Of a stretch of DNA of 36,222 nt, positions 1 through 24,413 are shown piece after piece. Both the position numbers and the translations under genes were made by a program. Each line of letters opens with the position of its first letter. The stretch's first letter is position 1. The notes below the pieces were generated by a model. The model saw only the letters and a program-made list of their open reading frames with translations, had not been told where the DNA came from and did not search any database. The stretch is from a virus. The DNA lies in the IMG/VR virus record IMGVR_UViG_3300042453_001040, positions 1 to 36,222 of that record. One strand, 5' to 3'.

Positions 1-1171
1 CGATGAAGGAGTCCGGCTGCCAATCCTTGTACTCCTCAAGCACCCGCTGCTTCAGCTCCGGGAACTCAAGGCGCTCCTTGACCGCGTTCAGCAGGATGAT
101 GTTGTAGTTGTTGGTCTCCTCGTTGAAGAAGACGCCCCAAGTCAGGAGGGCATTAAAGTCCGACCGGTTTGACTTCTCCTGAGCGGCGTCGAGCGACATG
201 ATGATGTGCTCGCACTGGGGTGGGGTCTCCTTGTCCCAGACCTGCCACCACTCCCGCTTGATAAGGGCACCTTCCTCCGATGTCGGCTGCTGCATGTACT
301 GAGCCTGCCAGTACCGCACGTCCATCGAGGCCTTCTTGGCCATCAACTCATCGATGCCCCAGAACTCAGGCCAGAGCGGTTTTTCGTTCAGGATCGCAGG
401 GAACTCGACCACTTCCCACTGATCGGCGTCCTCGTTTTTCGTCATGTGGTCAACGATCTTGCCCGTCAGGTCCATCTTTGACCACCGGGTCATCACCACG
501 ATGATCGCACCGCCCGGCATCAACCGCTGAACCGGGCCCGACTGGAACCACTCCCACGCGGGCTCGAATACGTCCGCACGACCCTGCTTAGCTTCCTGTT
601 CAGAATGAGGGTCGTCAATAATAAAGAGATCGGCACCACGACCAGCCAAGGCGCCGCCAACACCAATAGCAAAATACTCGCCGTTAAAATTAGTGCCCCA
701 GCGTGAAGCACTTTTACTATCAGCTTGAAGCTCGACGTTAGAAAAGATGTCACGGTAAGACTCCGATCCGACGAGATTACGCACCCGACGACCGAAGTTC
801 ACTGCGAGATCTGCAGTGTGGGACGCCATGATGACCTTCTTCTGGGGGTAGCGCCCCAAAAACCACGCAGGCGCTAGGTACGAGATCATCTCCGACTTGC
901 CGTGACGCGGCGCGATGTTGACGATGACACGCTTTTTCTTGCCATCTGCGATGTCTTCGAAGATCTGGGCAAGTTTTCGGTGGTGCGGGCCCACCTTGTA
1001 GCCGGGATAGACGTGCTGGATGAAGTCCAAGAACGAAGTTTTGCCCAATTTCTGCGTAACTTGGCTTTGGTACTGCTTCAAGAGCTCGGCCACGCGCCGT
1101 TTTTCCTTCTCCGGCATCGTCGGCAGGGCGCTTTTCAGCTTTTCGAGGCTTTCAGGCGTCAGTTGTAGCAC
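1..1171 (-). CDS. terL: Phage terminase large subunit (partial, C-terminus beyond left edge)
   Basis: The ATPase-nuclease motor that packages DNA into the prohead. The reverse strand reads open from a GTG at 1171 to the window edge, about 390 residues. Visible are a Walker A-like APRHGKSEM (about residues 87-95), a Walker B LFIIDDPHSE, the coupling-type VMTRW segment, and MSLDAA, which fits the first acidic residue of the RNase H-like nuclease. The GTG start overlaps the small-subunit gene by 20 nt and is the first start after an in-frame stop; an ATG at 1117 (residue 19) is the alternative. Neither has a strong Shine-Dalgarno site, so coupling to the upstream gene is likely. The end of the nuclease domain is missing. 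Family assignment is very secure. Confidence 0.95.
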   Translation of the reverse strand, partial: MLQLTPESLEKLKSALPTMPEKEKRRVAELLKQYQSQVTQKLGKTSFLDFIQHVYPGYKVGPHHRKLAQIFEDIADGKKKRVIVNIAPRHGKSEMISYLAPAWFLGRYPQKKVIMASHTADLAVNFGRRVRNLVGSESYRDIFSNVELQADSKSASRWGTNFNGEYFAIGVGGALAGRGADLFIIDDPHSEQEAKQGRADVFEPAWEWFQSGPVQRLMPGGAIIVVMTRWSKMDLTGKIVDHMTKNEDADQWEVVEFPAILNEKPLWPEFWGIDELMAKKASMDVRYWQAQYMQQPTSEEGALIKREWWQVWDKETPPQCEHIIMSLDAAQEKSNRSDFNALLTWGVFFNEETNNYNIILLNAVKERLEFPELKQRVLEEYKDWQPDSFI

Positions 1172-1697
1172 TTTTCTCGCCTAAAACCTTGTACTCGATG
1201 CCCTCAAGCACCGACATGAGCTCCTTCTCGACCTCTTCGATGGGCTTGATGATGTGCGTGGTCTCGGTCCGCTTCTTGAACGCGTCGATCCCGTCCACTT
1301 CGCCGAGCTTGGTCACGGCTTGGATGCGCGACCGGCTGTCCTTTGCATGCTCGATCTCATAAACGAGCTTGTTGATCACGTACATCTTGAGCTCAGACAG
1401 GTCATCCACGAGTGCGCAGTTGGTCTGAGCGACCATACCAGCGAGGTACGCCATCATTTCGTTCGGGTACTTGCTGTAATCGATCCGCTTTTGCGGGTCA
1501 GACATCATCTGCGTGGCCAATTGCTTGGCCTCTTCGATGTCGTTCTGGTTCGGGACGATGGGAGTCCCAGTGATGTCCGAGAGGAACTTGATCGTCCGTG
1601 CTCGGGCGTTGAGCTCTTCTTGCGGAGACAGGTCCGGCAACGCCTCAGCCGCGTTTGCGGGGAGCGGTATGTTTTCGTCGATTTCAGGAAAAAGCAT
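1152..1697 (-). CDS. terS: Probable phage terminase small subunit
   Basis: A 181-residue protein directly upstream of, and overlapping, the large terminase gene; this is where phages usually encode the DNA-recognition subunit. The sequence is acidic and helical, with a Pro-rich N-terminus and a core containing KLGEVDGIDAFKKRTETTH. I do not see a textbook helix-turn-helix, so the call rests on position and general resemblance to small subunits of environmental phages. The ATG at 1697 has an in-frame stop two codons upstream and no clear Shine-Dalgarno sequence. A candidate minus-strand promoter lies at 1738-1766, which would give a short leader of about 33 nt. Confidence 0.7.
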   Translation of the reverse strand: MLFPEIDENIPLPANAAEALPDLSPQEELNARARTIKFLSDITGTPIVPNQNDIEEAKQLATQMMSDPQKRIDYSKYPNEMMAYLAGMVAQTNCALVDDLSELKMYVINKLVYEIEHAKDSRSRIQAVTKLGEVDGIDAFKKRTETTHIIKPIEEVEKELMSVLEGIEYKVLGEKSATTDA

Positions 1698-3147: not shown

Positions 3148-3185
3148 AGCCCCCGCATGGATCGCCATGCGGGGGCTTTGTCGTT
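3148..3185 (+). terminator. Strong intrinsic terminator
   Basis: A perfect 13-bp stem: 3148-3160 pairs with 3165-3177 around ATCG, followed by TTGTCGTTTCT. It ends the unit carrying the 2365-3099 gene and insulates the AT-rich control region downstream. Confidence 0.85.
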
Positions 3186-3527
3186 TCTGCGCTCCGCGTC
3201 GACCTTCTCGCCATGCTCGCGGTGCGACGCCAGTTACGTGATACCAGTTCTACGGAGACCAGTTCCCACGTTAAAAGGTCTACGCCCCACGTCGAATGGC
3301 CTACGCCGACCGTGCATAAAACCATGCATAAACCGACTAACCGCGCTCGAGATGAAACTCGAGGATTATCAATGGGATACGCGATTGTTCTAGAAGTGGG
3401 GTTTTGTTCTACTTTTGGAAGTTATATTGCGGAACAAGATTTCTGGCTTATAACGTAACTTCGAAAAATAAACTCGAGGGTAATCAGGCACTTACAATGG
3501 CCGGTTTTATGCAATATCTAACTTGTT

Positions 3528-3663
3528 CCGTGTTCTTGCGTTTTTGGCAGTGTATGACTCCCCCCGGTGCGGCAGAAAACTCAGAACAAAACTGTTCCAC
3601 GCGCAGTGTTCTAACTTCTGCATTTTAGGTTCCGTATACTATTTGGTTTTCGCAAGAACACGG
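3528..3663. repeat. 13-bp inverted repeat, arms 110 bp apart
   Basis: CCGTGTTCTTGCG at 3528-3540 is the exact reverse complement of CGCAAGAACACGG at 3651-3663. Similarity continues past one mismatch (ACAA on the outer side of each arm). Each arm contains one TGTTC/GAACA pentamer of the cluster in this region. Confidence 0.8.
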
Positions 3664-3818
3664 TACAAACGATATTTTTTTCTGTAACTTTCTTTCTCTA
3701 TCTATAACTAACTAAATAAATAAATAGATAGATAACAAGCACTTACGCCAATTGGCTTTCCACGCCATTTTATAACTAACGACGTTAAATTGCGTTATCA
3801 ATAAAACTTTGATTTTTA

Positions 3819-3845
3819 GAACAAACGGAACAAATAGAACAAAAG
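3819..3845. repeat. Iteron-like triple direct repeat GAACAAANN
   Basis: Three head-to-tail 9-bp units, GAACAAACG, GAACAAATA and GAACAAAAG, identical in their first seven bases. They form the right end of a group of twelve TGTTC/GAACA pentamers between 3386 and 3841. The 9-bp spacing differs from LexA-type boxes. Confidence 0.8.
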
Positions 3846-3878: not shown

Positions 3879-3982
3879 CGTTCTCTATACTCTCGTTTTT
3901 CTACGCTACCCCTATGCCCCGTTCTCTATACTCTCGTTTTTCTACGTCCACGCATCGTCCTCTATACTCCCGAAATTCTACG
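3879..3982 (+). repeat. Three 27-bp direct repeats with a TATACT core
   Basis: Copies at 3879-3905 and 3920-3946 are identical (CGTTCTCTATACTCTCG, then TTTTTCTACG). A third at 3956-3982 is diverged but keeps CTCTATACTC and TTCTACG. Start-to-start distances are 41 and 36 bp. Each has a TATACT like the -10 of the promoter at 4011-4039, yet none has a recognisable -35 at 17 bp. They could be promoters for an alternative polymerase or activator, or protein-binding sites. Confidence 0.8.
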
Positions 3983-4010: not shown

Positions 4011-4039
4011 TTGACTTAACAGGATACTTTTGCTATACT
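4011..4039 (+). promoter_or_regulatory. Near-consensus sigma-70 promoter, extended -10
   Basis: TTGACT (4011-4016), a 17-nt spacer, and TATACT (4034-4039) preceded by TGC, an extended -10 element. This is the best promoter in the window and should be read by unmodified host RNA polymerase. The start would fall near 4046, about 90 nt before the ATG at 4136, putting the palindrome at 4100-4115 inside the leader RNA. Confidence 0.85.
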
Positions 4040-4135: not shown

Positions 4136-4894
4136 ATGGCTAACGGCTACATCATCTACGAGGGTGCGTCACTGCTTGACGGTGCGCCTATCGTGGTCAT
4201 CGCGACAGGGTTCGAGTCACGCAGCACCAATCGCAAGACGGGTGCGATGATTCAGACCTATGTGTTAAGAAGCGATGTTGACCCGGTATCTGCTGTGCGT
4301 GATGGAACCGACGCATCTATATGCGGCGATTGCCCGCATCGTGGTACCACGACGACCATTGACGGCCAACCCAAGAACATCGGGCGCACCTGCTATGTCA
4401 ATGTGGGACAGGGTGCCTTGGCTGTCTGGAAGGCCTACAAGCGTGGGGTGTACCCGCTCTGGGATGGGTACCTTACCGGCACGACGCTACCCTTTGTCCG
4501 ACTTGGCACCTACGGCGACCCTGCCGCAGCCCCGGCTCATGTATGGGAGGCCATCACTCGCGATGCCTCTGGGCATACCGGATACACGCATCAATGGCGA
4601 GACCCTCGTTTCGCCTACCTTAAGACCCTGTGCATGGCATCGGCGGACACGGCAGAGGAGGCGGCTCAAGCCCAAGCGATGGGATGGCGCACTTTCCGAG
4701 TGTCACTTGACGCGGCTAAAGACCCAATGCTCAAGGGCGAATCACTTTGCCCGGCATCAGCCGAAGCAGGCAAGAAGTTGACCTGTGCACAGTGCCTTGC
4801 CTGTGGAGGCGCGGATGGACGGCGTGGGTCGATCTATATCCCGGCTCACGGTGGCTTTGCCGTGATGACCAATGTGCGCCGTCGTGCGGCGTGA
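4136..4894 (+). CDS. Conserved Cys-rich phage protein, probably zinc-binding
   Basis: 252 residues. It resembles a widespread phage and plasmid family of unknown function that begins with GYIIYEGASLLDG-like sequence (possibly DUF7227; I am unsure of the number). Two cysteine groups suggest metal binding: CGDCPHRG (C63, C66) with C86 in GRTCYVNVGQG, and C205, C217, C220, C223 near the C-terminus. No enzyme motif is visible. The start is fixed by AGGAGAACAAGG just upstream. It is the first gene after the consensus promoter at 4011-4039, so it is likely expressed immediately after infection. A DNA-binding or regulatory role would suit the position but is not shown. Confidence 0.8.
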   Translation: MANGYIIYEGASLLDGAPIVVIATGFESRSTNRKTGAMIQTYVLRSDVDPVSAVRDGTDASICGDCPHRGTTTTIDGQPKNIGRTCYVNVGQGALAVWKAYKRGVYPLWDGYLTGTTLPFVRLGTYGDPAAAPAHVWEAITRDASGHTGYTHQWRDPRFAYLKTLCMASADTAEEAAQAQAMGWRTFRVSLDAAKDPMLKGESLCPASAEAGKKLTCAQCLACGGADGRRGSIYIPAHGGFAVMTNVRRRAA

Positions 4895-6053: not shown

Positions 6054-6110
6054 TGCATTTCGTTGGGGACTGTTTCGTTTTGTTGGTTGACTTTCATCTT
6101 CATCACTTTT

Positions 6111-6126
6111 CCTAACAGCGGTTAGG
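6111..6126 (+). promoter_or_regulatory. Palindrome copy 6, T-run type (CCTAAC-AGCG-GTTAGG)
   Basis: Perfect 6-bp inverted repeat followed by TTTTTC and GGAGGTAGCAAC, with the ATG at 6145, 18 nt away. The T-run makes it look like a weak intrinsic terminator placed directly against the ribosome-binding site; copy 8 at 10945 has the same arrangement. Confidence 0.9.
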
Positions 6127-6144
6127 TTTTTCGGAGGTAGCAAC

Positions 6145-6555
6145 ATGGCTTACAAGAAATACGCCCGTGAGTGCGACAAGTGCGGCGCGGGTATGAACGA
6201 GGGGTACTACATCGAGTGCGGCGAGTACTACTGCTCCGAGGTCTGCCTGTACAAGGAAATCACGCCGAAGGAGTGGGAGGAGTTGTACGCCGACGGCGAG
6301 GGCGATTCGTACTGGACGACGTGGTACGAAGACCCGGACGAGTACATGGTGGACGAGGATGACCCGGCTCCGAACAAAGTCAGCGTGGAGTTGGCGGATG
6401 CTGTGGACTCAACGGGCAAGGTCGATGAGGAGAAGGTCGCCAAGTTGTTGGCGGAGGAACTGCGCCGACGATGGTTCGTTGACCCCAACAAGTACGAGTT
6501 CATCAACTGGACTGTGACCTGCGACGTGCAGGTCAAAGAGGAGGACAAGGTATGA
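6145..6555 (+). CDS. Acidic zinc-ribbon-like protein
   Basis: 136 residues. The N-terminal 40 residues carry cysteines at 10, 13, 25, 30 and 34 (CDKCG, ECGEYYCSEVC), typical of a small zinc-binding module. The remainder is strongly acidic and Trp/Tyr-rich. Its 3' end is the junction motif GAGGAGGACAAGG followed by an ATGA overlap, so the protein ends in EEDKV. It heads a block of tightly joined genes running to 8522. No specific function is recognised; zinc ribbons of this size often bind nucleic acid or partner proteins. Confidence 0.7.
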   Translation: MAYKKYARECDKCGAGMNEGYYIECGEYYCSEVCLYKEITPKEWEELYADGEGDSYWTTWYEDPDEYMVDEDDPAPNKVSVELADAVDSTGKVDEEKVAKLLAEELRRRWFVDPNKYEFINWTVTCDVQVKEEDKV

Positions 6556-6764
6556 ACGATAAGACTACGAACGACCGGGACACCATCACCATCAAGTGGC
6601 ACATCACGGATGTGCAGGAGGTGCGCCCTGACCTGACCGATGACCAAGCACGGGATGTGCTGTGGCGTGTGCGTGACATCCACGATGCCAACGAGGGCGT
6701 GAATTGGTACGTCATCGAGTGCGTGGCAAGCGAGATGTTCCCCGAAGAGGAGGACAAGGCGTGA
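6552..6764 (+). CDS. Small early protein, unknown function
   Basis: 70 residues, unrecognised. Composition is acidic, with DLTDDQARDVLWRVRDIHDA suggesting a helix, followed by a short NWYVIECVASEMF beta-like stretch. The start overlaps the previous stop (ATGA) and uses the Shine-Dalgarno site encoded inside the preceding gene. The 3' end repeats that motif, so this protein also ends in EEDKA. The pattern of helix then strand recurs in phage small proteins without known function. Confidence 0.65.
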   Translation: MNDKTTNDRDTITIKWHITDVQEVRPDLTDDQARDVLWRVRDIHDANEGVNWYVIECVASEMFPEEEDKA

Positions 6765-6949
6765 CCACCCCGACTGTAGGCCATGTCGTGACTTGCAACA
6801 AAGTGAAGTACGAATTTTTCGCCAAGTGTGCGCCACGCAAGGGGTGGATAGTCATAGAGCATACCGACTACGGCTATTCCATCTACCGCATGTCCGCCAA
6901 AAAAGTGAGGGAGTTGCTCCAATGCAAACAAGAGGAGGACAAGGCATGA
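6761..6949 (+). CDS. Small early protein, GTG start
   Basis: 62 residues, unrecognised, with a beta-rich look (VTCNKVKYEFFAKC, GWIVIEHTDYGYSIYRM) and a short C-terminal helix. The GTG at 6761 overlaps the previous stop as GTGA and follows GAGGAGGACAAGGC. A GTG here rather than ATG may reduce its translation relative to its neighbours. It is the third protein in a row to end in EEDK plus Ala or Val. Confidence 0.65.
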   Translation: MTTPTVGHVVTCNKVKYEFFAKCAPRKGWIVIEHTDYGYSIYRMSAKKVRELLQCKQEEDKA

Positions 6950-7230
6950 CCGTGAACTACATGATCATCAAGCAAGAGGACTTCGACCCCGACAACCTGC
7001 CTGACGAGGGCTGTCTTCGTGAGGTCATCCTCGACTGGGACAACTACGGCAGGAGTGAGGACGACGAGTGGATAGCCAAAGGGGAGTGCAACTATTTCCT
7101 CTGGCGCAATACAGAAGTGTCGGACAAGTTCGTGCTGTGCGTGAATGTCTGGTACCACCCACCCCATGACGATGATGACGATGACTATCCCTATGTGGTG
7201 CAGTATCTGGAAGTGGAGGTGCAATCGTGA
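6946..7230 (+). CDS. Acidic early protein with a poly-Asp stretch
   Basis: 94 residues, unrecognised. Begins MTVNYMIIKQEDFDP; contains HPPHDDDDDDYPYV near residues 72-85, where six aspartates sit between His/Pro and Tyr residues. Joined to the previous gene by an ATGA overlap with the shared junction motif. The acidity recalls phage DNA mimics or metal-binding peptides, but nothing specific supports either. Confidence 0.65.
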   Translation: MTVNYMIIKQEDFDPDNLPDEGCLREVILDWDNYGRSEDDEWIAKGECNYFLWRNTEVSDKFVLCVNVWYHPPHDDDDDDYPYVVQYLEVEVQS

Positions 7231-7415
7231 ACGAGAAGAAGACCTATGCTGTAGTGTTGTACATCCACACAGACGGCGACCCTCATGCATGGGACATGGC
7301 CGAACGTCTGCACTGCGAGGTGTACGACGAGGCTGTCTATGACATGGGCGAGGACTGCAAGCCCATCAATCTCCGGCTGCTGCCGGGTTGGCGATACGGT
7401 ATTCAGGAGGTGTGA
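7227..7415 (+). CDS. Small early protein, unknown function
   Basis: 62 residues, unrecognised. Begins MNEKKTYAVVLYIHTDGDPH. The GTG at 7227 overlaps the preceding stop (GTGA), with GGAGGTG upstream at 7216-7222. The alternating hydrophobic N-terminus (YAVVLYIH) suggests a beta strand, followed by a helix containing AERLHCEVYDEAVYDMGEDC. Its position inside an unbroken run of coupled genes supports expression. Confidence 0.6.
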   Translation: MNEKKTYAVVLYIHTDGDPHAWDMAERLHCEVYDEAVYDMGEDCKPINLRLLPGWRYGIQEV

Positions 7416-7416
7416 G

Positions 7417-7605
7417 ATGACCGAAGAACAGAAGACCGCAATCCGATGCGCGTTCGCAGACCTGTGCGGGGCGATGCAAGCCTACTTGCAGGGCGATGTC
7501 CACGCACATGACTGGAAGGCACATGGGCTGACCATCATGGAGATGAAGGAAGCATTCGACTTTTTACCTGAACTGCCGCCTGATCTGGCGGACGAGGAGG
7601 ACTGA
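7417..7605 (+). CDS. Small helical early protein
   Basis: 62 residues, unrecognised. Mainly helical (MTEEQKTAIRCAFADLCGAM...), ending in acidic DLADEED. AGGAGG lies at 7406-7411 just before the ATG. The 3' end again encodes GAGGAGGAC, here serving as the ribosome-binding site of the DUF3150-like gene 2 nt downstream. That close join ties it to the AAA/VWA system that follows. Confidence 0.6.
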   Translation: MTEEQKTAIRCAFADLCGAMQAYLQGDVHAHDWKAHGLTIMEMKEAFDFLPELPPDLADEED

Positions 7606-7607
7606 AC

Positions 7608-8522
7608 ATGTCTATCATCACATTGGAAAAGCCGGACGCGCTGACGTCGCTGTCCACGGCTGCGATTCTGGTCGCGGTCGAGATTCACTCGCGAACCTTC
7701 ACCAAGAAAGACCGCAAGATTGCGCAGGAGGTGTCGGAAGACCGTGGCGCACGGGCGGTGGCCGGGTCGTGGCAGCATGACCTGTTCGTGGGCGATGCGG
7801 ACTTGACTGCTCTGCTCGACTACCGACCGGTCATCTACAACTGGATCAAGCGGCGCACCTACGACTGGGCAGGCTCGACCCGCATCCTGCCGATGGTGAA
7901 CTACGCCAAGTTCATGGAGGAGTTCAAGGTACACGAGGGCAAGTTCTACGAACTGCGTGACAAGTTCCTCGCCCGCTACGAGGAGCGCGTCAATGCGATG
8001 GCGTTCGTGCGTGGCCCGATGTTCGACCGTACGGACTACCCGTCCGTCGATGAGTTGCGCTACGTCTATTCGGTGCAGTTGCATATCAGCGACGTGCCCG
8101 TCGGTGACTTCCGCGTGAAGATTGCGGAGGACGTGGCTGAAGACTTGCGCACGACGTACCAGAAGCAGGTGAACCAAGACATCGAGCGCATCTTGCAGAC
8201 GCAGACCGACCAGTTGGTCGAGGTGCTTGACTCGCTGTCCCGTGGCTGCAGCACGCAGACGAAGACCGACAAGGATGGCAAGACCAAGGAGGTGCGCGGT
8301 CGCGTGTACGAGACCACCGTCGAGAAGGCGTTGGAGTTGTGCGCTGTGTTCCGCGAGTTCAACACCGCAGGGTGTACCAAGTTGGAGGATGCCCGCGCCC
8401 GGTTGCAGGCTACGCTCACCGACGTGAACGTCGACCAACTGCGTACCAATGAATCGCTGCGCGTGCGTGTGAAGAGCGATGTCGACGACATCCTTGCGAA
8501 ATTTGGTGCGAAGGCTGACTGA
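7608..8522 (+). CDS. DUF3150-like protein, partner of AAA/VWA pair
   Basis: 304 residues. Similar in layout to DUF3150 proteins, which sit beside MoxR/CobS-type ATPases and VWA proteins in phages and mobile elements. An N-terminal segment (AAILVAVEIHSRTFTKKDRK) is followed by LLDYRPVIYNWIKRRTYDWAGSTRILP, a likely conserved region, and long charged helices with Gln-rich stretches (about residues 180-240). No catalytic motif is visible. GAGGAGGAC precedes the ATG. Two genes later come the ATPase (8606) and the VWA protein (9694), so the three probably act as one complex. The DUF assignment is from memory of the family and should be treated as moderate. Confidence 0.6.
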   Translation: MSIITLEKPDALTSLSTAAILVAVEIHSRTFTKKDRKIAQEVSEDRGARAVAGSWQHDLFVGDADLTALLDYRPVIYNWIKRRTYDWAGSTRILPMVNYAKFMEEFKVHEGKFYELRDKFLARYEERVNAMAFVRGPMFDRTDYPSVDELRYVYSVQLHISDVPVGDFRVKIAEDVAEDLRTTYQKQVNQDIERILQTQTDQLVEVLDSLSRGCSTQTKTDKDGKTKEVRGRVYETTVEKALELCAVFREFNTAGCTKLEDARARLQATLTDVNVDQLRTNESLRVRVKSDVDDILAKFGAKAD

Positions 8523-8525
8523 CTG

Positions 8526-8538
8526 GCGCAGACTGCGC
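8526..8538 (+). other. Short GC hairpin before palindrome copy 7
   Basis: GCGCA (8526-8530) pairs with TGCGC (8534-8538) around GAC, followed by AAAA. It gives two hairpins in a row (with 8541-8564) between the DUF3150-like and AAA ATPase genes. There is no T-run on the plus strand. Confidence 0.45.
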
Positions 8539-8544
8539 AAAATT

Positions 8545-8560
8545 CCTGACAGGTGTTAGG
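8545..8560 (+). promoter_or_regulatory. Palindrome copy 7 (CCTGAC-AGGT-GTTAGG), extended arms
   Basis: The flanks AATT on both sides extend this copy to a 10-bp stem (8541-8564). Its single deviation, G at 8548, faces T at 8557, so the RNA stem keeps a G-U pair. The downstream gene starts at 8606, 45 nt away, farther than usual. Confidence 0.85.
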
Positions 8561-8605
8561 AATTCTTGGATTGCTTCAACTCAACTAGAACCTAGGAGTA
8601 ATGTC

Positions 8606-9682
8606 ATGGCGAACATAGACCTCAACCCGACCGTGTCGTTGGCTGACCTGCGACACATCATCCCGGCTATCGGCGAGACCAACACGGTGCTTGTCGTGTC
8701 CACGCCCGGACAGGCCAAGACGAGCATGCTCAACACGTTCAAGGAGGACTTGGGCAAACGGTTCGCAGCCTACGTGTACCTCGACGCGGCCAACCTCGAC
8801 GTGGGTGATATCTCCTCGCGCATCCCGGTGCATGCCGAGAAGAAGATGATGCAGTACGTGACCGACCTCGTGCCCTTCGACAAGGGGCCTGTCATGGTGA
8901 TGATCGATGAGATTGGCAAGGCACCTCGCATCATGCAGCCGATGCTGACCCGGCTGCTGCTCGAACGGTACGTAGGTGATATGGCGCTGCCTGCAGGGTC
9001 TATCGTGTGGGCGACGAGCAACAACGCTAGCGATGGCGTGGGCGATATCTTCCCGGCACACACACTGAACCGTGTCACCGTCGTGACTCTGCGCAACGCC
9101 ACCAACAAGGAGTGGGCTGTGTGGGCGAGCAACAACGGCGTGCATCCGATGCTGCGTACGTGGGCAGTCCTCAACCCGCGAGCGTTCGCACACTATGCGC
9201 AGGGAGGGCAGGACGATAACGTGATGATATTCAACCCGCGTCGTCCGGCGCAGCCGTTCGTGTCACTGCGGTCGCTGACCAAGTGTGATTCGATTGTGCG
9301 GAACAAGGGCACGATTGGCGACACGGCGACGTACGCACTGTTGTCCGGCACGGTCGGGCAGGCGGCGGCGAAGTCCATCATGACGCTGTTCGAGGTGAAC
9401 AACGACGTCGTGGATTGTGCGGACATCTTCAAAGACCCCGATGGGTGCAAGATTCCCGAGAGCCCTGCGGCCATCTACATGATGCTGTTCAACGCGGTCG
9501 ATGCCATCGAGACGCAGGCCGAGATGACGGCGTTCATGAAGTACATCAAGCGCATGAACTCGCGTGAGGTGACGGGCGTGCTGTACACGCAACTGACAGA
9601 GAACAAGCGCACGGCGAAGATTGCCAACAACAACGGCGAGATCAACGAGTGGCTGCAGGCCAACTACAAGGTCTTGGTCTAA
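8606..9682 (+). CDS. MoxR/CobS-like AAA+ ATPase
   Basis: 358 residues. AAA+ proteins of this group use ATP to remodel partner proteins, usually together with a VWA-domain protein (RavA-ViaA, CobS-CobT). Visible: a Walker A variant STPGQAKTS (about residues 32-40), with Ala before the catalytic Lys as in RavA; Walker B MVMIDEIGK (D101, E102); sensor 1 ATSNN (136-140); and a probable Arg finger in HTLNRV (R156). The C-terminal third is helical. AGGAG lies 7 nt before the ATG. The metallopeptidase/VWA gene follows 11 nt downstream, and a DUF3150-like gene precedes it. The substrate in phage infection is unknown. Confidence 0.88.
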   Translation: MANIDLNPTVSLADLRHIIPAIGETNTVLVVSTPGQAKTSMLNTFKEDLGKRFAAYVYLDAANLDVGDISSRIPVHAEKKMMQYVTDLVPFDKGPVMVMIDEIGKAPRIMQPMLTRLLLERYVGDMALPAGSIVWATSNNASDGVGDIFPAHTLNRVTVVTLRNATNKEWAVWASNNGVHPMLRTWAVLNPRAFAHYAQGGQDDNVMIFNPRRPAQPFVSLRSLTKCDSIVRNKGTIGDTATYALLSGTVGQAAAKSIMTLFEVNNDVVDCADIFKDPDGCKIPESPAAIYMMLFNAVDAIETQAEMTAFMKYIKRMNSREVTGVLYTQLTENKRTAKIANNNGEINEWLQANYKVLV

Positions 9683-9693
9683 GAGGTATCACC

Positions 9694-10938
9694 ATGAACG
9701 CTGTTATGAACCCCGCTGTGGATATCTCCGCAGTGTCAGACGCACTCACCCGTGTACATATCCGGCTCATGTCGCACCCTGAGACCCGGCTGTATGCGAG
9801 TGTCATCCTGCTTGGCAAGAGCGAGGTGGTGGACACGCCCGACTGCCCGACGGCTTACACCGACGGCATCAACAAAAAGTACGGCGCGGCCTTCTGCTCG
9901 CAGTTGTCCCTCGCAGAGATGGGTGGGCTTGTGCTGCACGAGAACATCCACGTCATGCTCAAGCACCTGCCACGCCACCGTGACCTGATGAAAGAGGACG
10001 CGGAGTTGGCCAACATCGCCATGGACTACGTGACGAACCTGCTCATCGACGAGGTCAAGGACAAGACTATCGCTGTCCTGCCGGAGGGTGGACTGCTCGA
10101 CCGACAGTACAGGGGATGGTCGGTGCGCGAGGTGTACGAGCACCTGCGCCGTGAGGAGCAGAAGCAGAAGAAAGACGGGCAGGGGCAGGCCGGGGCAGGC
10201 AAGCCCGGCAAGCCGGGTGGTGGCAACGGCAGACCGCAGACGCTCGACAAGCATGACTTCAGCAAGTTGTCTGAGGCCACGCCGGAGGAGGTGAAGAAGA
10301 TTGCCGATGCCGTGGACAGTTGTCTGCACCAAGCGGGCATCCTCGCCGGGCGCACTGGTGCGGAGGTACCACGTGCCATGCAGGAGGTCATGGCACCCGA
10401 GGTTGACTGGCTCAACGAGACCCGCGAGTTCGTGTCCGCACATGCGTGGGGACGGGACGAGGCGACGTGGCGCAGGTACAACCGGCGGTATGTGGCTGAC
10501 GATATCTTCCTGCCCTCCACGTACAGCGAGACCATCGATGAGTTGGTCGTGTCGTGTGACCTGTCGGGGTCTGTGCATGGTGAGGTGGAACGAAAGTTGT
10601 TGAGCGAGGTCGCCAACGTCGCCATGATCTGCAAGCCGAAGCGGCTGCGCGTCCTGTGGTGGGATACCGAGGTTCGCAGTGAGCAGGTGTTCGAGGAGGA
10701 CTACGCGCAGGTCGCAGGTCTGCTGCGCCCGGTGGGTGGCCGTGGTACGCGGGTGGGTTCGGTCAGCGACTACATGCGTGACAAGAACATCAAGGCCAAC
10801 TGCCTCATCGTCCTGACTGACGGGCATGTCGAGCACGGCGTGAAGTGGGAGGTCAACACGCCGACGCTGTGGCTCATCACGGCGAACAACTCCTTCGTGC
10901 CGCCGGGTGGTGGTGTTAAGGTTCGGGTCAATTCTTAA
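9694..10938 (+). CDS. Metallopeptidase-like plus VWA-domain protein (DUF2201 type)
   Basis: 414 residues. The N-terminal half has a zincin-type motif, LHENIH (H82, E83, H86). A Gly/Pro/Lys-rich linker (about 155-182) leads to a VWA-type domain with the metal-ion site DLSGS (289-293), GGRGTRVG containing T342, and LTDGH (374-378). This pairing matches the putative-metallopeptidase plus VWA-like family found beside MoxR ATPases. ATG 9694 is chosen because it follows AAGAGGTATCACC and lies 11 nt past the ATPase stop. The likely role is metal-dependent recognition or cleavage of a target presented by the ATPase; the target is not known. Confidence 0.88.
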   Translation: MNAVMNPAVDISAVSDALTRVHIRLMSHPETRLYASVILLGKSEVVDTPDCPTAYTDGINKKYGAAFCSQLSLAEMGGLVLHENIHVMLKHLPRHRDLMKEDAELANIAMDYVTNLLIDEVKDKTIAVLPEGGLLDRQYRGWSVREVYEHLRREEQKQKKDGQGQAGAGKPGKPGGGNGRPQTLDKHDFSKLSEATPEEVKKIADAVDSCLHQAGILAGRTGAEVPRAMQEVMAPEVDWLNETREFVSAHAWGRDEATWRRYNRRYVADDIFLPSTYSETIDELVVSCDLSGSVHGEVERKLLSEVANVAMICKPKRLRVLWWDTEVRSEQVFEEDYAQVAGLLRPVGGRGTRVGSVSDYMRDKNIKANCLIVLTDGHVEHGVKWEVNTPTLWLITANNSFVPPGGGVKVRVNS

Positions 10939-12441: not shown

Positions 12442-12673
12442 GTTTGGCGCATACCAAGCGATGCCAGTGACCGGGGGCTACGGCAACAGCGGCGTGCCGG
12501 ATTTTTTGGTTTGTCACAAGGGGAGGTTCTATGGTATAGAGTGCAAGGCAAACGGTAATAAGCCTACCGCGCTTCAATTGAAGCATCTCGATGACATCCG
12601 CAAAGCAGGTGGCATCGCATTGTTGATTGATGAAACAAACGTAGAGACCCTACGCAAGGAGTTAGAGACATGA
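12392..12673 (+). CDS. VRR-NUC domain nuclease
   Basis: 93 residues, almost entirely one VRR-NUC domain of the PD-(D/E)XK superfamily, which cuts branched or damaged DNA and includes resolvase-like enzymes. Catalytic pattern: E4, then GVPDF with D37, then IECKA with E50 and K52, and a Gln in LQLKHL. ATG 12392 is the likely start; longer readings add sequence overlapping the previous gene in another frame. The ribosome-binding site is weak (CAGGGTG), so coupling to 12016-12441 is probable. In phages such enzymes can resolve replication intermediates before packaging. Confidence 0.88.
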   Translation: MTPESKVKAKVKKILAEFGAYQAMPVTGGYGNSGVPDFLVCHKGRFYGIECKANGNKPTALQLKHLDDIRKAGGIALLIDETNVETLRKELET

Positions 12674-13092
12674 CTATCAGTGCAAAGATTCGCCGTTATC
12701 TGGCAAAGGGTGTGAGTGCGGATGAGATCGCCAAGAAACTTGGCATCAGCAAGAACCGTGTATACACGGTGCGGTGGAAGGAAGCGAAGAAGACGGTCAA
12801 GCCTAAGAAGGCGAAGCCGACCGAGTTGAAGAGAGAAGCGTTGCTGACCGACGATGAAATCATCGCGCTGTTCGACCGTCCCAAGACCGACCTCGTGAAT
12901 CACCCCGAGCACTACAAGGCCGGTGGCATCGAAGTCATCGACTTCATCGAAGCCAAAGACCTCAACTACCGTCTGGGCAACGTCATCAAGTACGTGAGCC
13001 GTGCGGGTAAGAAGGACTCCGACCCTGTGCAGGACTTGGAGAAGGCCGCGTGGTACCTGAAGCGCGAGATCGAAGCGCGGAAGGGTGCGTGA
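12670..13092 (+). CDS. HTH plus DUF3310 (SaV-like) protein
   Basis: 140 residues in two parts. Residues 14-38 (GVSADEIAKKLGISKNRVYT) look like a helix-turn-helix. Residues 75-138 match DUF3310, a common phage domain annotated as SaV-like or nucleotide kinase, with NHPEHYKAGGIEVIDFI and GNVIKYVSRAGKK. Genuine kinase activity is not established from sequence. The start overlaps the VRR-NUC stop (ATGA). The N-terminal HTH is not part of the minimal DUF3310 unit, so this version may also bind DNA or was fused to a regulator. Confidence 0.85.
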   Translation: MTISAKIRRYLAKGVSADEIAKKLGISKNRVYTVRWKEAKKTVKPKKAKPTELKREALLTDDEIIALFDRPKTDLVNHPEHYKAGGIEVIDFIEAKDLNYRLGNVIKYVSRAGKKDSDPVQDLEKAAWYLKREIEARKGA

Positions 13093-21217: not shown

Positions 21218-21532
21218 ATGCCACGTTCGTATAGCGAAAGGTTCCTGCTGGATTTGTACAACGCAAATCAGCCGCAGTCGCTTGGTATTACGCTCGCTAA
21301 ACTTTGCGTGGAGGCCAACATCCCGGCCACTTACATAGCTGTCGCGTTGGAGGTAAGTCCGACGATGGTCTATAAGTGGTTCCGGGGTGCGGGCATCCGC
21401 AAGAAGAAGCAAAAGGTCGTTGAGGTATTCATGGACTTCTTGAAGAAAGACATGGAGAGCGGCGTCCTGCCTGCCAAGACTTCGATTGATGCACGGATCT
21501 ACATCCAGAATCTGGTAGGAGTAAAGATTTGA
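21218..21532 (+). CDS. HTH DNA-binding protein
   Basis: 104 residues. LAKLCVEANIPATYIAVALE followed by VSPTMVYKWFRGAGI has the spacing of a Cro/CI-like helix-turn-helix, with a basic stretch (RKKKQKV) after it. A C-terminal helical part may mediate dimerisation. The start lies 9 nt after the previous stop. A strong terminator follows at 21559-21587, so this is the last gene of its unit. It is the best candidate here for a phage regulator that could recognise the CCTAAC palindromes or the TGTTC sites, which is speculation. Confidence 0.75.
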   Translation: MPRSYSERFLLDLYNANQPQSLGITLAKLCVEANIPATYIAVALEVSPTMVYKWFRGAGIRKKKQKVVEVFMDFLKKDMESGVLPAKTSIDARIYIQNLVGVKI

Positions 21533-21599: not shown

Positions 21600-24413
21600 A
21601 TGAGAAAACAATTTTACGAGAAAGCATTACCGTCGCAGGGTGTCTATTGTGCGGCTGAGATCAAGCCTAACGCAGGCGTGATCCATCAGTTCTTTGACAC
21701 TCGCGACGAATTGGTAGCGTATCTTGACGATGTAAGTGACGAACCGGTCAACGTGTTCGTCGCCCTCAGTACTTTCAAGAGTTGGACACGCAAGGCTGAT
21801 AACGTAGCCTACACGCGCAGTTTCTTCGTCGATCTCGATGTAGATGCCGAGGACGATAAGAAGTACTCGTCAAAAGATGAAGCGATGGCTGCGCTGCAGG
21901 ACTTCGTGGCTTCCGTGCAGTTGCCTCCCCCGGTCGTGGTCGATTCGGGCGGCGGGGTGCATGCCTATTGGCTGTTCCAACAGGACATCCCGTTGGATGA
22001 ATGGAAGCCCTATGCTGAGAAGTTCAAGACGTTCTGCCGCGAGCACATCAAGATAGACCCAGTAGTCACGGCAGATGCAGCACGCATCATGCGTTCGCCG
22101 GACACGTTGAACTGCAAGTTTGACCCGCCTGTTCGCACACAGGTGGTCGACGGGCCGATGTATGAGTATGACTTCGAGGCGTTCAAGGACTTCTTAGGCC
22201 CGCTCGATGTATCAGAAAATGATCCACTGGCTAACGTTAAGCGTGGCCTAGACGATGACACTCTAAAGATCGCCAAGCTTGACAACTTTGAGAAGGTCTT
22301 TCAGATCATCGCCGAGAAGAGTTTGAATGATGAAGGGTGCGCACAGATCAAGCACATCTTGGTCAACTCCGCGACCCTGCCTGAACCGCTGTGGCATTCG
22401 GGGCTTTCGATTGCGCGGCACTGCTCTGACTGGGAGACCGCAATCCACCTGATGTCGGAGGACTACTCCGGCTATAGCCCTGAACAAACCATAAGGAAGG
22501 CGAATGAAACACTTGGCAAGCCGCATAGTTGCGATACTTTCGCAGACCGAAATCCCGGAGGATGCGACGGCTGCCCCTTCCGAGGCAAAATCACCAACCC
22601 ACTCAACATTGGACGCAGGCTCATCGAAGCCCCCGCTCCCGAGGAAGTTAGTGAGGAGGACGCAGTTCGGCAGAACGAGGATCCCGAAGCGGTTCCAGTA
22701 TTTCCTGCGTTCCTCAAGCCATACGTCCGAGGAGTGAACGGCGGGGTGTACTTCCTGCCTACGCCCAAGCGCGATGAGGAAGGCAAGGTAATCCAAGAAG
22801 ACCCGATATGCCTGAGCCTGAACGATCTGTACCCGGTCAAGCGCATCTATCACAAGTCTATGGGTGAGACGTTGGTGGTACGGTATGTGCTCCCCAAGGA
22901 CCCGCTACGCGAGTTCTTGCTGCCGCTGCGTGCGGTTGCGACACGCGAAGAGATGCTGAAGATCCTCAGCGATGCAGGACTGCTCGTACTGAAAGATGCC
23001 GTGGCCAAGATGCAGGACTACTGGTCGAAGTGGGCTATGTACTTACAGAATAAGGACGGAGCAGAACAGATGCGCATGCAGATGGGATGGACGGAGAACA
23101 TGGATTCGTTCGTTATCGGCACGCAGGAACTCACCAGAGACGGAGAAATACGCAAGGCGGCTGCGAGCCCCATGGTCCGAAACGTTTCGAAACTCCTTGT
23201 GCCTTCGGGCGACTACGGCAAGTGGAAGACCTCAGCCAACTTCCTCAACACGCCCGGCTTCGAACTGCATGCGTTCGGCATGATGTGCGGGTTCGGTTCG
23301 CCGTTCATGTGCTTGACGCCAACGAGCGGTGTCTGCGTGTCGTTTACGAGCAACGGTTCTAGCCATGGCAAGACCTCAGCGATGTACGCCGGGCTCTCTG
23401 TGTGGGGGCATCCGAAAGAACTGTCCGTCTTGGAAGGCAACTCTACGGACAATGCGTACATCGGACGTTATCTGAACCTGAAGAACATCCTGTACGGCAT
23501 CGACGAGGCCGGGTCCATCGAAGGCGAGGACCTGTCGAGGCTCATCCACCGGGTCTCGCAAGGTAAGGCCAAGATGCGCATGCAGTCATCACAGAACTCC
23601 GAGCGCGAGCTGGAGGAGACCGCGTCGCTTATCGCCATCTTCACCAATAACACTCCGCTGTACGACAAGCTTACCCAGTTCAAGGGTAGCCCGGACGGTG
23701 AAGTTGCCCGCTTGGTGGAGTTCGTGTTGCAGAAGCCTGCCGCCCTGACAACTGAAGTCGGTATCGCTATGTTCAATCCGTTCCGTATGAACTACGGGTG
23801 GGCAGGGATCGACCTGATCAAGCACTACTTCAAGGTCGGCGACGAGTACACGAAGTCCGTGCTGCAGAAGTGGGCCCTGCGGTTCCGTAAAGACTTCGGC
23901 GACAACAGCGTCTACCGGTTCTGGGAGAGCCTTATCTCGACCTCGTTCGGTGGCACTGAACTAGCGATTGAGGCAGGCATTGTCGATCTTGACCTTGAGA
24001 GGATATACCTTAGAGTTATTGGAGACATGCTGGCTATACGCGACGGCACGAAGCGGTCTTCGCCTGAAGAATACAAATCCCTGATCGGCGAGTTCTGCGA
24101 CAAGCATGGCCACAACTTCCTGATCCTGAACGACGGCAAGGTCGCCTCCGAGCCGCGCTTTGAGTTGATGGGCAGGACTGAGGTTGACGAGGGGATGCGG
24201 TACATCCCGAAGAGCATCTTCAAGAAATTCCTTGGCGAGAAGCAGATCTCGTTCCGTGAGTTCGAGATGGCTATGCGGGCACAGGGCATCCTGACCTTCG
24301 AGAACAAGAAGCGACTTGGCACCGGGTGGAAGCCCGGTAGAGGTGCGCCGGGCGTTGATGTCTATGGTTTCAAAACAGATCCGAAAGAACTGCTAGATGA
24401 CAGACAGGATTGA
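21600..24413 (+). CDS. Primase-helicase: AEP-like primase plus DUF927-like ATPase
   Basis: 937 residues. Makes primers and unwinds DNA at the phage fork. N-terminal archaeo-eukaryotic primase signature: FFVDLDVD (D78, D80), DSGGGVHAYW (H121) and IDPVVTADAARIMRSPDTLN. A cysteine group follows (C311 and CDGCPFRG). The C-terminal ATPase resembles DUF927: SNGSSHGKTS as Walker A (K591, T592; the usual first Gly is Asn585) and LYGIDEAGS as Walker B (D635, E636), then IFTNNTPLYD. The ATG follows a terminator closely and has only a weak Shine-Dalgarno site (GGACGG). The next gene overlaps its end. Confidence 0.9.
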   Translation: MRKQFYEKALPSQGVYCAAEIKPNAGVIHQFFDTRDELVAYLDDVSDEPVNVFVALSTFKSWTRKADNVAYTRSFFVDLDVDAEDDKKYSSKDEAMAALQDFVASVQLPPPVVVDSGGGVHAYWLFQQDIPLDEWKPYAEKFKTFCREHIKIDPVVTADAARIMRSPDTLNCKFDPPVRTQVVDGPMYEYDFEAFKDFLGPLDVSENDPLANVKRGLDDDTLKIAKLDNFEKVFQIIAEKSLNDEGCAQIKHILVNSATLPEPLWHSGLSIARHCSDWETAIHLMSEDYSGYSPEQTIRKANETLGKPHSCDTFADRNPGGCDGCPFRGKITNPLNIGRRLIEAPAPEEVSEEDAVRQNEDPEAVPVFPAFLKPYVRGVNGGVYFLPTPKRDEEGKVIQEDPICLSLNDLYPVKRIYHKSMGETLVVRYVLPKDPLREFLLPLRAVATREEMLKILSDAGLLVLKDAVAKMQDYWSKWAMYLQNKDGAEQMRMQMGWTENMDSFVIGTQELTRDGEIRKAAASPMVRNVSKLLVPSGDYGKWKTSANFLNTPGFELHAFGMMCGFGSPFMCLTPTSGVCVSFTSNGSSHGKTSAMYAGLSVWGHPKELSVLEGNSTDNAYIGRYLNLKNILYGIDEAGSIEGEDLSRLIHRVSQGKAKMRMQSSQNSERELEETASLIAIFTNNTPLYDKLTQFKGSPDGEVARLVEFVLQKPAALTTEVGIAMFNPFRMNYGWAGIDLIKHYFKVGDEYTKSVLQKWALRFRKDFGDNSVYRFWESLISTSFGGTELAIEAGIVDLDLERIYLRVIGDMLAIRDGTKRSSPEEYKSLIGEFCDKHGHNFLILNDGKVASEPRFELMGRTEVDEGMRYIPKSIFKKFLGEKQISFREFEMAMRAQGILTFENKKRLGTGWKPGRGAPGVDVYGFKTDPKELLDDRQD

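Follow-up and report, generated by a model that had tools for sequence, protein, structure and literature searches.

A conserved iteron array as the probable replication origin of a water-borne phage family encoding a DUF927 PrimPol-helicase

Twelve copies of a short motif, clustered in a non-coding gap of a virus contig, most likely mark the site at which DNA replication starts in a family of water-borne phages that is large but little known. The contig, a 36,222-bp fragment of a phage genome that was analysed over its whole length (the window), encodes a family-A DNA polymerase, a RecB-like exonuclease, a SNF2-type helicase and a DUF927 primase-helicase. Late genes run leftward and early genes rightward from the cluster, with the terminase genes on one side and the early operon on the other (Table 1). 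From sequence comparisons and predicted structures we consider it probable (roughly 0.84) that the cluster is an iteron origin, and that the DUF927 PrimPol-helicase encoded at 21600–24413 binds it and starts replication there. This would assign to the phage group an origin and a cognate initiator, neither of which is described in the literature that we searched, and would link initiators of the SaPI/SCC type to autonomous phages.

A cluster of TGTTC(C/T) sites in an AT-rich gap

The initial annotation drew attention to 12 TGTTC/GAACA pentamers, six in each orientation, and all were recovered at the same coordinates within 456 bp. Each reads TGTTC followed by a pyrimidine on its own strand; eight share TTGTTC plus a pyrimidine, as had been described, and the exact 9-bp iteration of three (3819, 3828 and 3837) was also found. 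The earlier estimate of about one pentamer expected by chance agrees with dinucleotide shuffles of this 456-bp stretch, which gave a mean of 0.98 and a maximum of 5, with none of 2000 reaching 12. Some 5-mer, mostly an A/T run, attains 12 copies in 15% of the shuffles of this region; the pentamer count alone is therefore weak, and it is conservation in relatives that decides. The stretch had been called AT-richer than its surroundings, and its GC content is indeed 0.37 compared with 0.57 for the contig. In a comparison that allowed for AT content, pentamer density was not equalled elsewhere, being 26.3 per kb in the array and 0.98 per kb outside; the second-densest 450-bp window of the contig holds 4 pentamers, and its two other AT-rich windows hold none.

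Within the array, the inner left pair (3523–3540) is 94% complementary to 3651–3668, and ACTTAC (3740–3745) follows the AT-rich stretch. A short motif repeated at intervals beside an AT-rich element in non-coding DNA is the arrangement by which iteron origins are recognized, and the array has it.

Table 1. Features of the array, its flanks and the proposed initiator gene
Feature	Position	Strand	Remarks
TerL	2–1171	leftward	
Probable TerS	1152–1697		placed by position; without family match
Intrinsic terminator	3148–3177	+	closes gene left of array
Iteron array, proposed replication origin	3386–3841	.	12 TGTTC(C/T) sites, six per strand; geometry kept in ~50 relatives
Left block	3386–3436	.	sites 3386 (+), 3405 (+) and inverted 3432 (-); fits conserved >..> 23 < block
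Inner left pair	3523–3540	+	TTGTTCCGTGTTCTTGCG; sites 3524 and 3531; inverted repeat I2
Centre sites	3584–3611	.	3584 (-), 3593 (+), 3607 (+); additional in this lineage
Inner right pair	3651–3668	-	CGCAAGAACACGGTACAA; TGTTCT (3656) and degenerate TTGTACC
AT-rich stretch, candidate DNA-unwinding element	3689–3738	.	82% AT; AT maximum similarly placed in all 36 array genomes
Right triple	3819–3841	-	direct iterons 9 bp apart, YRGAACAAA x3
Sigma70-like promoter of early operon	4011–4039	+	TTGACT-17-TATACT; just right of array
Small HTH-like protein p104	21218–21532	+	adjoins initiator; kept in array genomes
Proposed initiator	21600–24413	+	937 aa; PrimPol (AEP primase), DUF927 AAA+ helicase and C-terminal winged helix
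Initiator C-terminal winged-helix domain	24117–24374	+	residues ~840–925; divergence tracks array motif
Predicted recognition helix	24252–24284	+	residues 885–895

Array geometry is maintained while the motif is exchanged

Relatives were gathered with the first early protein, TerL and the primase-helicase as queries; a blastn search of the phage database with the array gap gave no match. A comparable cluster is present in the same gap in ~50 related phages, including some that have lost alignable sequence around it: L008 is one of several in which the flanking genes retain 77–87% DNA identity and the gap is unalignable, yet a cluster with the same orientation order is present. An unbiased search for 6-mer clusters recovered the arrays. 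The motif is TGTTCC in most and otherwise TGTGCC, TGTGTC or TGTACG, the window array belonging to the TGTTCC/T class. Arrays are 350–460 bp long with sites in both orientations, and site density across these genomes is 13–36 per kb within arrays compared with 0.3–1.2 per kb outside. They share the skeleton > (8–12) > 23 < ~42 > 8 > ~115–130 < 8 < ~120–155 < 9 < 9 < (arrowheads giving site orientation and numbers spacing), which has two layout variants, and the AT-rich element falls between the < 8 < pair and the right < 9 < 9 < triple. All 36 of the array genomes have their 50-bp AT maximum between +206 and +324, counted from the start of the array, and ACTTA often comes next. Mixed-motif arrays in G002, G003, G059 and G057 look like intermediates. 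That the motif varies while the spacing stays argues for a co-evolving protein that binds, or reads, the sites.

GC skew, which had been named at the outset as a check, was also examined. The cumulative minimum lay ~0.3–3.3 kb from the array in all 11 of 11 long contigs; divergent transcription also contributes to a minimum at this position.

The proposed initiator resembles SaPI Rep and SCCmec Cch

The primase-helicase, whose gene lies ~18 kb from the array (21600 compared with 3386–3841), matches Pfam DUF927 at 1.3e-16, and its sequence profile reaches Cch (5dgk) at an E-value of 5.5e-12. The predicted N-terminus folds as an AEP PrimPol (6zp9, Z 15.7; RepB', 3h25, Z 12.2), and residues 366–935 of the predicted model resemble SCCmec Cch (5dgk, Z 17.5) and SaPIBov1 Rep (8tch, Z 16.8). 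Confidence in the whole-protein model is moderate (pLDDT 65), and is better for the C domain when modelled by itself from 29 sequences (pLDDT 80). This domain is predicted to be a winged helix, with helices at 871–880 and 885–895 and strands at 898–904 and 919–925; it matches the fold of Cch best (Z 10.2), then those of SaPIBov1 Rep (8.7) and the pCW3 oriT-binding protein (8.0), the next row scoring 4.5.

Divergence of the winged helix follows the array motif

We compared protein divergence with motif difference in a window scan, after regression on whole-protein divergence, for genome pairs up to 25% or up to 40% divergent. Whether 60 or 90 residues long, the best windows in the primase-helicase all fell within its last 100 residues, and the partial r of the C domain (residues 834–930) with motif difference was 0.73–0.76 (nominal p 3e-8, genome pairs being non-independent). 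Because pairs share ancestry, the control that counts is not this nominal p but the behaviour of other windows and proteins on the same tree. For the primase and helicase parts, the DNA polymerase, the SNF2 helicase, p134, p282, p104 and TerS, r was at most 0.31; for the exonuclease it was at most 0.43, with the ratio unshifted. When all pairs were included, even very divergent ones, the winged helix was not at the top: the top windows lay in the primase (137–220), and the helix window ranked 41–81 of ~930. The winged-helix signal appears in pairs up to 40% divergent, where trouble with alignment and saturation is smaller.

Individual pairs were then compared. The primase-helicases of G057 and G059 are 98.8% identical, and six of their 11 differing positions fall at 887–895, within nine residues of the predicted recognition helix (p 4e-11), which reads VSTAEMEQVLTKKG in one protein and VSTDEMVHTLKAKG in the other. 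The left array sites are TGTACG in G057 and TGTTCC in G059, the left triple being TTGTACGCTTGTACGCTTGTACG in one and TTGTTCCGTTGTTCCGTTGTTC in the other, and the right sides are identical. Substitutions between these two arrays show no preference for the sites (Fisher p 0.45); the whole left block has been replaced, so that one recombination together with a helix exchange may account for the difference. In G010 and G055 (TGTGCC and TGTGTC), the C domain shows an excess of change, with 56.8% identity compared with 81.3% for the rest of the protein. The main exception to the coupling is the sister pair G006 and G039: their motifs differ, but the C domain (88.7% identity) is no more diverged than the rest of the protein (84.9%), and only three residues of their recognition helix are changed. 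Residues private to the three TGTGCC genomes are enriched in the primase-helicase (5, compared with a control mean of 0.15), and are probably for the most part clade markers, so that they carry no weight in the argument here.

Of the conserved replication proteins compared, only the putative initiator has a domain, its C-terminal winged helix, that clearly diverges with the array motif. Since motif and winged helix change together, the primase-helicase is indicated as the reader of the array. An origin with initiator sites, as proposed in the initial annotation, is thus supported by the conserved geometry with its AT-rich element, by the nearby GC-skew minimum and by covariation with the DNA-binding domain of the initiator. 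A DnaA/oriC-type origin is not indicated, the window containing 0 DnaA boxes (TTWTNCACA).

Alternative functions of the array

A packaging site (pac/cos) recognized by the terminase small subunit might be expected where this array is found, always near TerL and the probable TerS (the likely TerS gene lies ~1.7 kb to the left), and TerS sites occur clustered in P1 and SPP1. We consider this improbable. TerS is not supported as the binder, in that its divergence does not track the motif (ratio 1.10 compared with 1.02, p 0.56, from only 8 different-motif pairs); moreover, the MRARTIKLISDLTG segment is the same in TGTACG and TGTTCC genomes, and an AT-rich element and coupling to an initiator are unexpected at a pac site. 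That the cluster arose by chance or from the composition of an AT-rich spacer, as the frequency of 12-copy 5-mers in shuffles might suggest, has a negligible probability: orientation and spacing are kept in ~50 genomes with four alternative motifs, site density within arrays far exceeds that outside, and on these comparative data the explanation is already refuted.

The multi-site operator that the initial annotation offered as its other reading would have a phage regulator acting from the array on divergent early and late transcription. The divergence of late and early genes from the array, and a sigma70-like promoter beside it, would suit this, as would retention of the small HTH protein in array genomes. 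Two candidate regulators were rejected as binders, however. The recognition helix of the small HTH protein is identical across TGTTCC, TGTGCC and TGTGTC genomes, and its divergence is unrelated to the motif; the HTH-DUF3310 protein (12670–13092) has the same recognition helix in TGTTCY phages, including the window, and in TGTGTC phages, and its G006 version is without the HTH. Both known LexA (SOS) spacings, GTTCN7GTTC and GAACN4GTTC, are missing from the array. An operator has little likelihood in our view and is not needed, whereas the origin half of the earlier suggestion is strongly supported. A secondary regulatory role of the array is possible, as is a role of the small HTH-like protein as an accessory factor.

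A model for initiation

If the array is an iteron origin, the early-operon DUF927 PrimPol-helicase would bind the TTGTNNC iterons via its C-terminal winged helix, with helix and wing reading the variable iteron bases. Copies on the left blocks, the inner pairs and the right triple would assemble as helicase rings and open the AT-rich stretch at ~3689–3738; the same polypeptide would then unwind the DNA, and its PrimPol domain would prime for the phage family-A polymerase. We conjecture that the two-sided layout of the sites leads to two facing rings and a bidirectional start.

We hold more tentatively, at slightly below even odds, that this large clade of environmental phages has a modular origin, in which the spatial layout of the iterons is fixed and the NNC of TTGTNNC is rewritten together with a few helix and wing residues of the initiator. 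Were origins re-addressable in this way, related phages sharing one cell would have mutually orthogonal replication origins, and address switching may have been selected by competition with co-infecting relatives or initiator-stealing satellites. Natural pairs such as G057 and G059, in which a few changes in the recognition helix accompany a change of array motif, make the specificity code of this proposed winged-helix origin reader directly testable. They also bear on why a phage would switch address at all, one conceivable reason being the exclusion of competitors or satellites.

Relationship to known initiator–origin systems

By analogy, the best explanation of the array and its putative initiator is a mode of working that resembles SaPI Rep-ori and P4 alpha-ori. 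SaPI Rep recognizes iterons through its C-terminal domain, in which specificity resides, and Cch contains DUF927 (PMC7581432). Like SaPIBov1 Rep-ori and SCCmec Cch, the phage system has a DUF927-type AAA+ initiator helicase, a predicted C-terminal winged helix and several short iterons, and here C-terminal divergence tracks the motif. Unlike SaPI/SCC, the phage is an autonomous element, its helicase shares a polypeptide with an N-terminal AEP PrimPol, and its sites form a two-orientation array of 350–460 bp; the SaPI origin lies just downstream of the initiator gene, whereas the phage array lies ~18 kb upstream. The alpha protein of phage P4 uses a winged helix to bind its origin repeats (PMC4234260). 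It likewise unites primase, helicase and winged helix in one polypeptide, a domain layout given here by predicted structure only. The P4 alpha primase is of the TOPRIM (DnaG-like) type, whereas the N-terminus of the phage initiator is an AEP PrimPol by predicted fold. P4 has two cis regions (ori/crr), compared with one array here. With its initiator gene 18 kb from the origin and an AEP rather than a TOPRIM primase, the phage system belongs, on these comparisons, to neither SaPI Rep-ori nor P4 alpha-ori.

ORF904 of the archaeal plasmid pRN1 also combines an AEP primase-polymerase, a helicase and a C-terminal winged helix, but the pRN1 origin is a stem-loop without iterons, whereas the phage candidate is an iteron array. 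Iteron plasmids and lambda O/ori share with it direct iterons adjoining an AT-rich unwinding element; their initiator folds differ from that of the phage protein, and lambda O is without helicase or primase. The AEP primase plus DUF927 architecture is found in the PrimQH/All3500 families of the PrimPol-PV1 supergroup, predicted replication proteins of mobile elements (PMC5862659). No origin was found paired with these families in the text consulted, whereas here an array is paired with the protein. A DUF927 phage primase paired with an origin was not found in the openly licensed literature, most subscription journals lying outside the search, and within that scope the paired origin, the conserved geometry and the address switching appear to be new.

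Distant relatives and additional sequence features

Pseudomonas phage Rollin, a distant cultured phage, encodes a DUF927-type protein (26% identity) and could serve as a laboratory system. Its TTGCATA cluster, at ~261–678 of the record, lies where genes are sparse and includes a < 9 < 9 < triple. Similar clusters in gene-free gaps were seen in the more distant phages 023Pt_psg01 (MW574966, 13575–13784; TGTGCCA) and Planktothrix phage Pag-Yong1 (OL906435, 26210–26558; TGTATGAC). The protein annotated as 'putative integrase' in Rhizobium phage RHph_TM3_14A (MN988472, 42239–45322) is homologous to the primase-helicase. Closer to the window, the early regions of G039 and G031 (L316, oriented coordinates 6061–9763) share a ~3.7 kb block with 97–100% protein identity despite different array motifs, indicating recent exchange.

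Sequences like the early-operon promoter are carried by L008, L026 and L015. Between it and the array, a 27-nt repeat, CGTTCTCTATACTCTCGTTTTTCTACG, occurs three times at 3879–3982 with spacings of 41 and 36; each copy contains TATACT, and these are possibly repeated promoter -10 elements. A repeated leader of the CCTAACNNNNGTTAGGAAAAACTAGGAG type precedes several early genes (2222, 4100, 5616 and 8541), and the Cys-rich phrog_2554 protein encoded at 4136–4894 is common to mycobacteriophages, roseophages and Klebsiella phages. To the left, tandem repeats with an 18-bp unit, such as TGTCCG recurring every 18 bp, occupy 1975–2325, between TerS and the gene at 2365, and their copy number is different in the sister contig G001.
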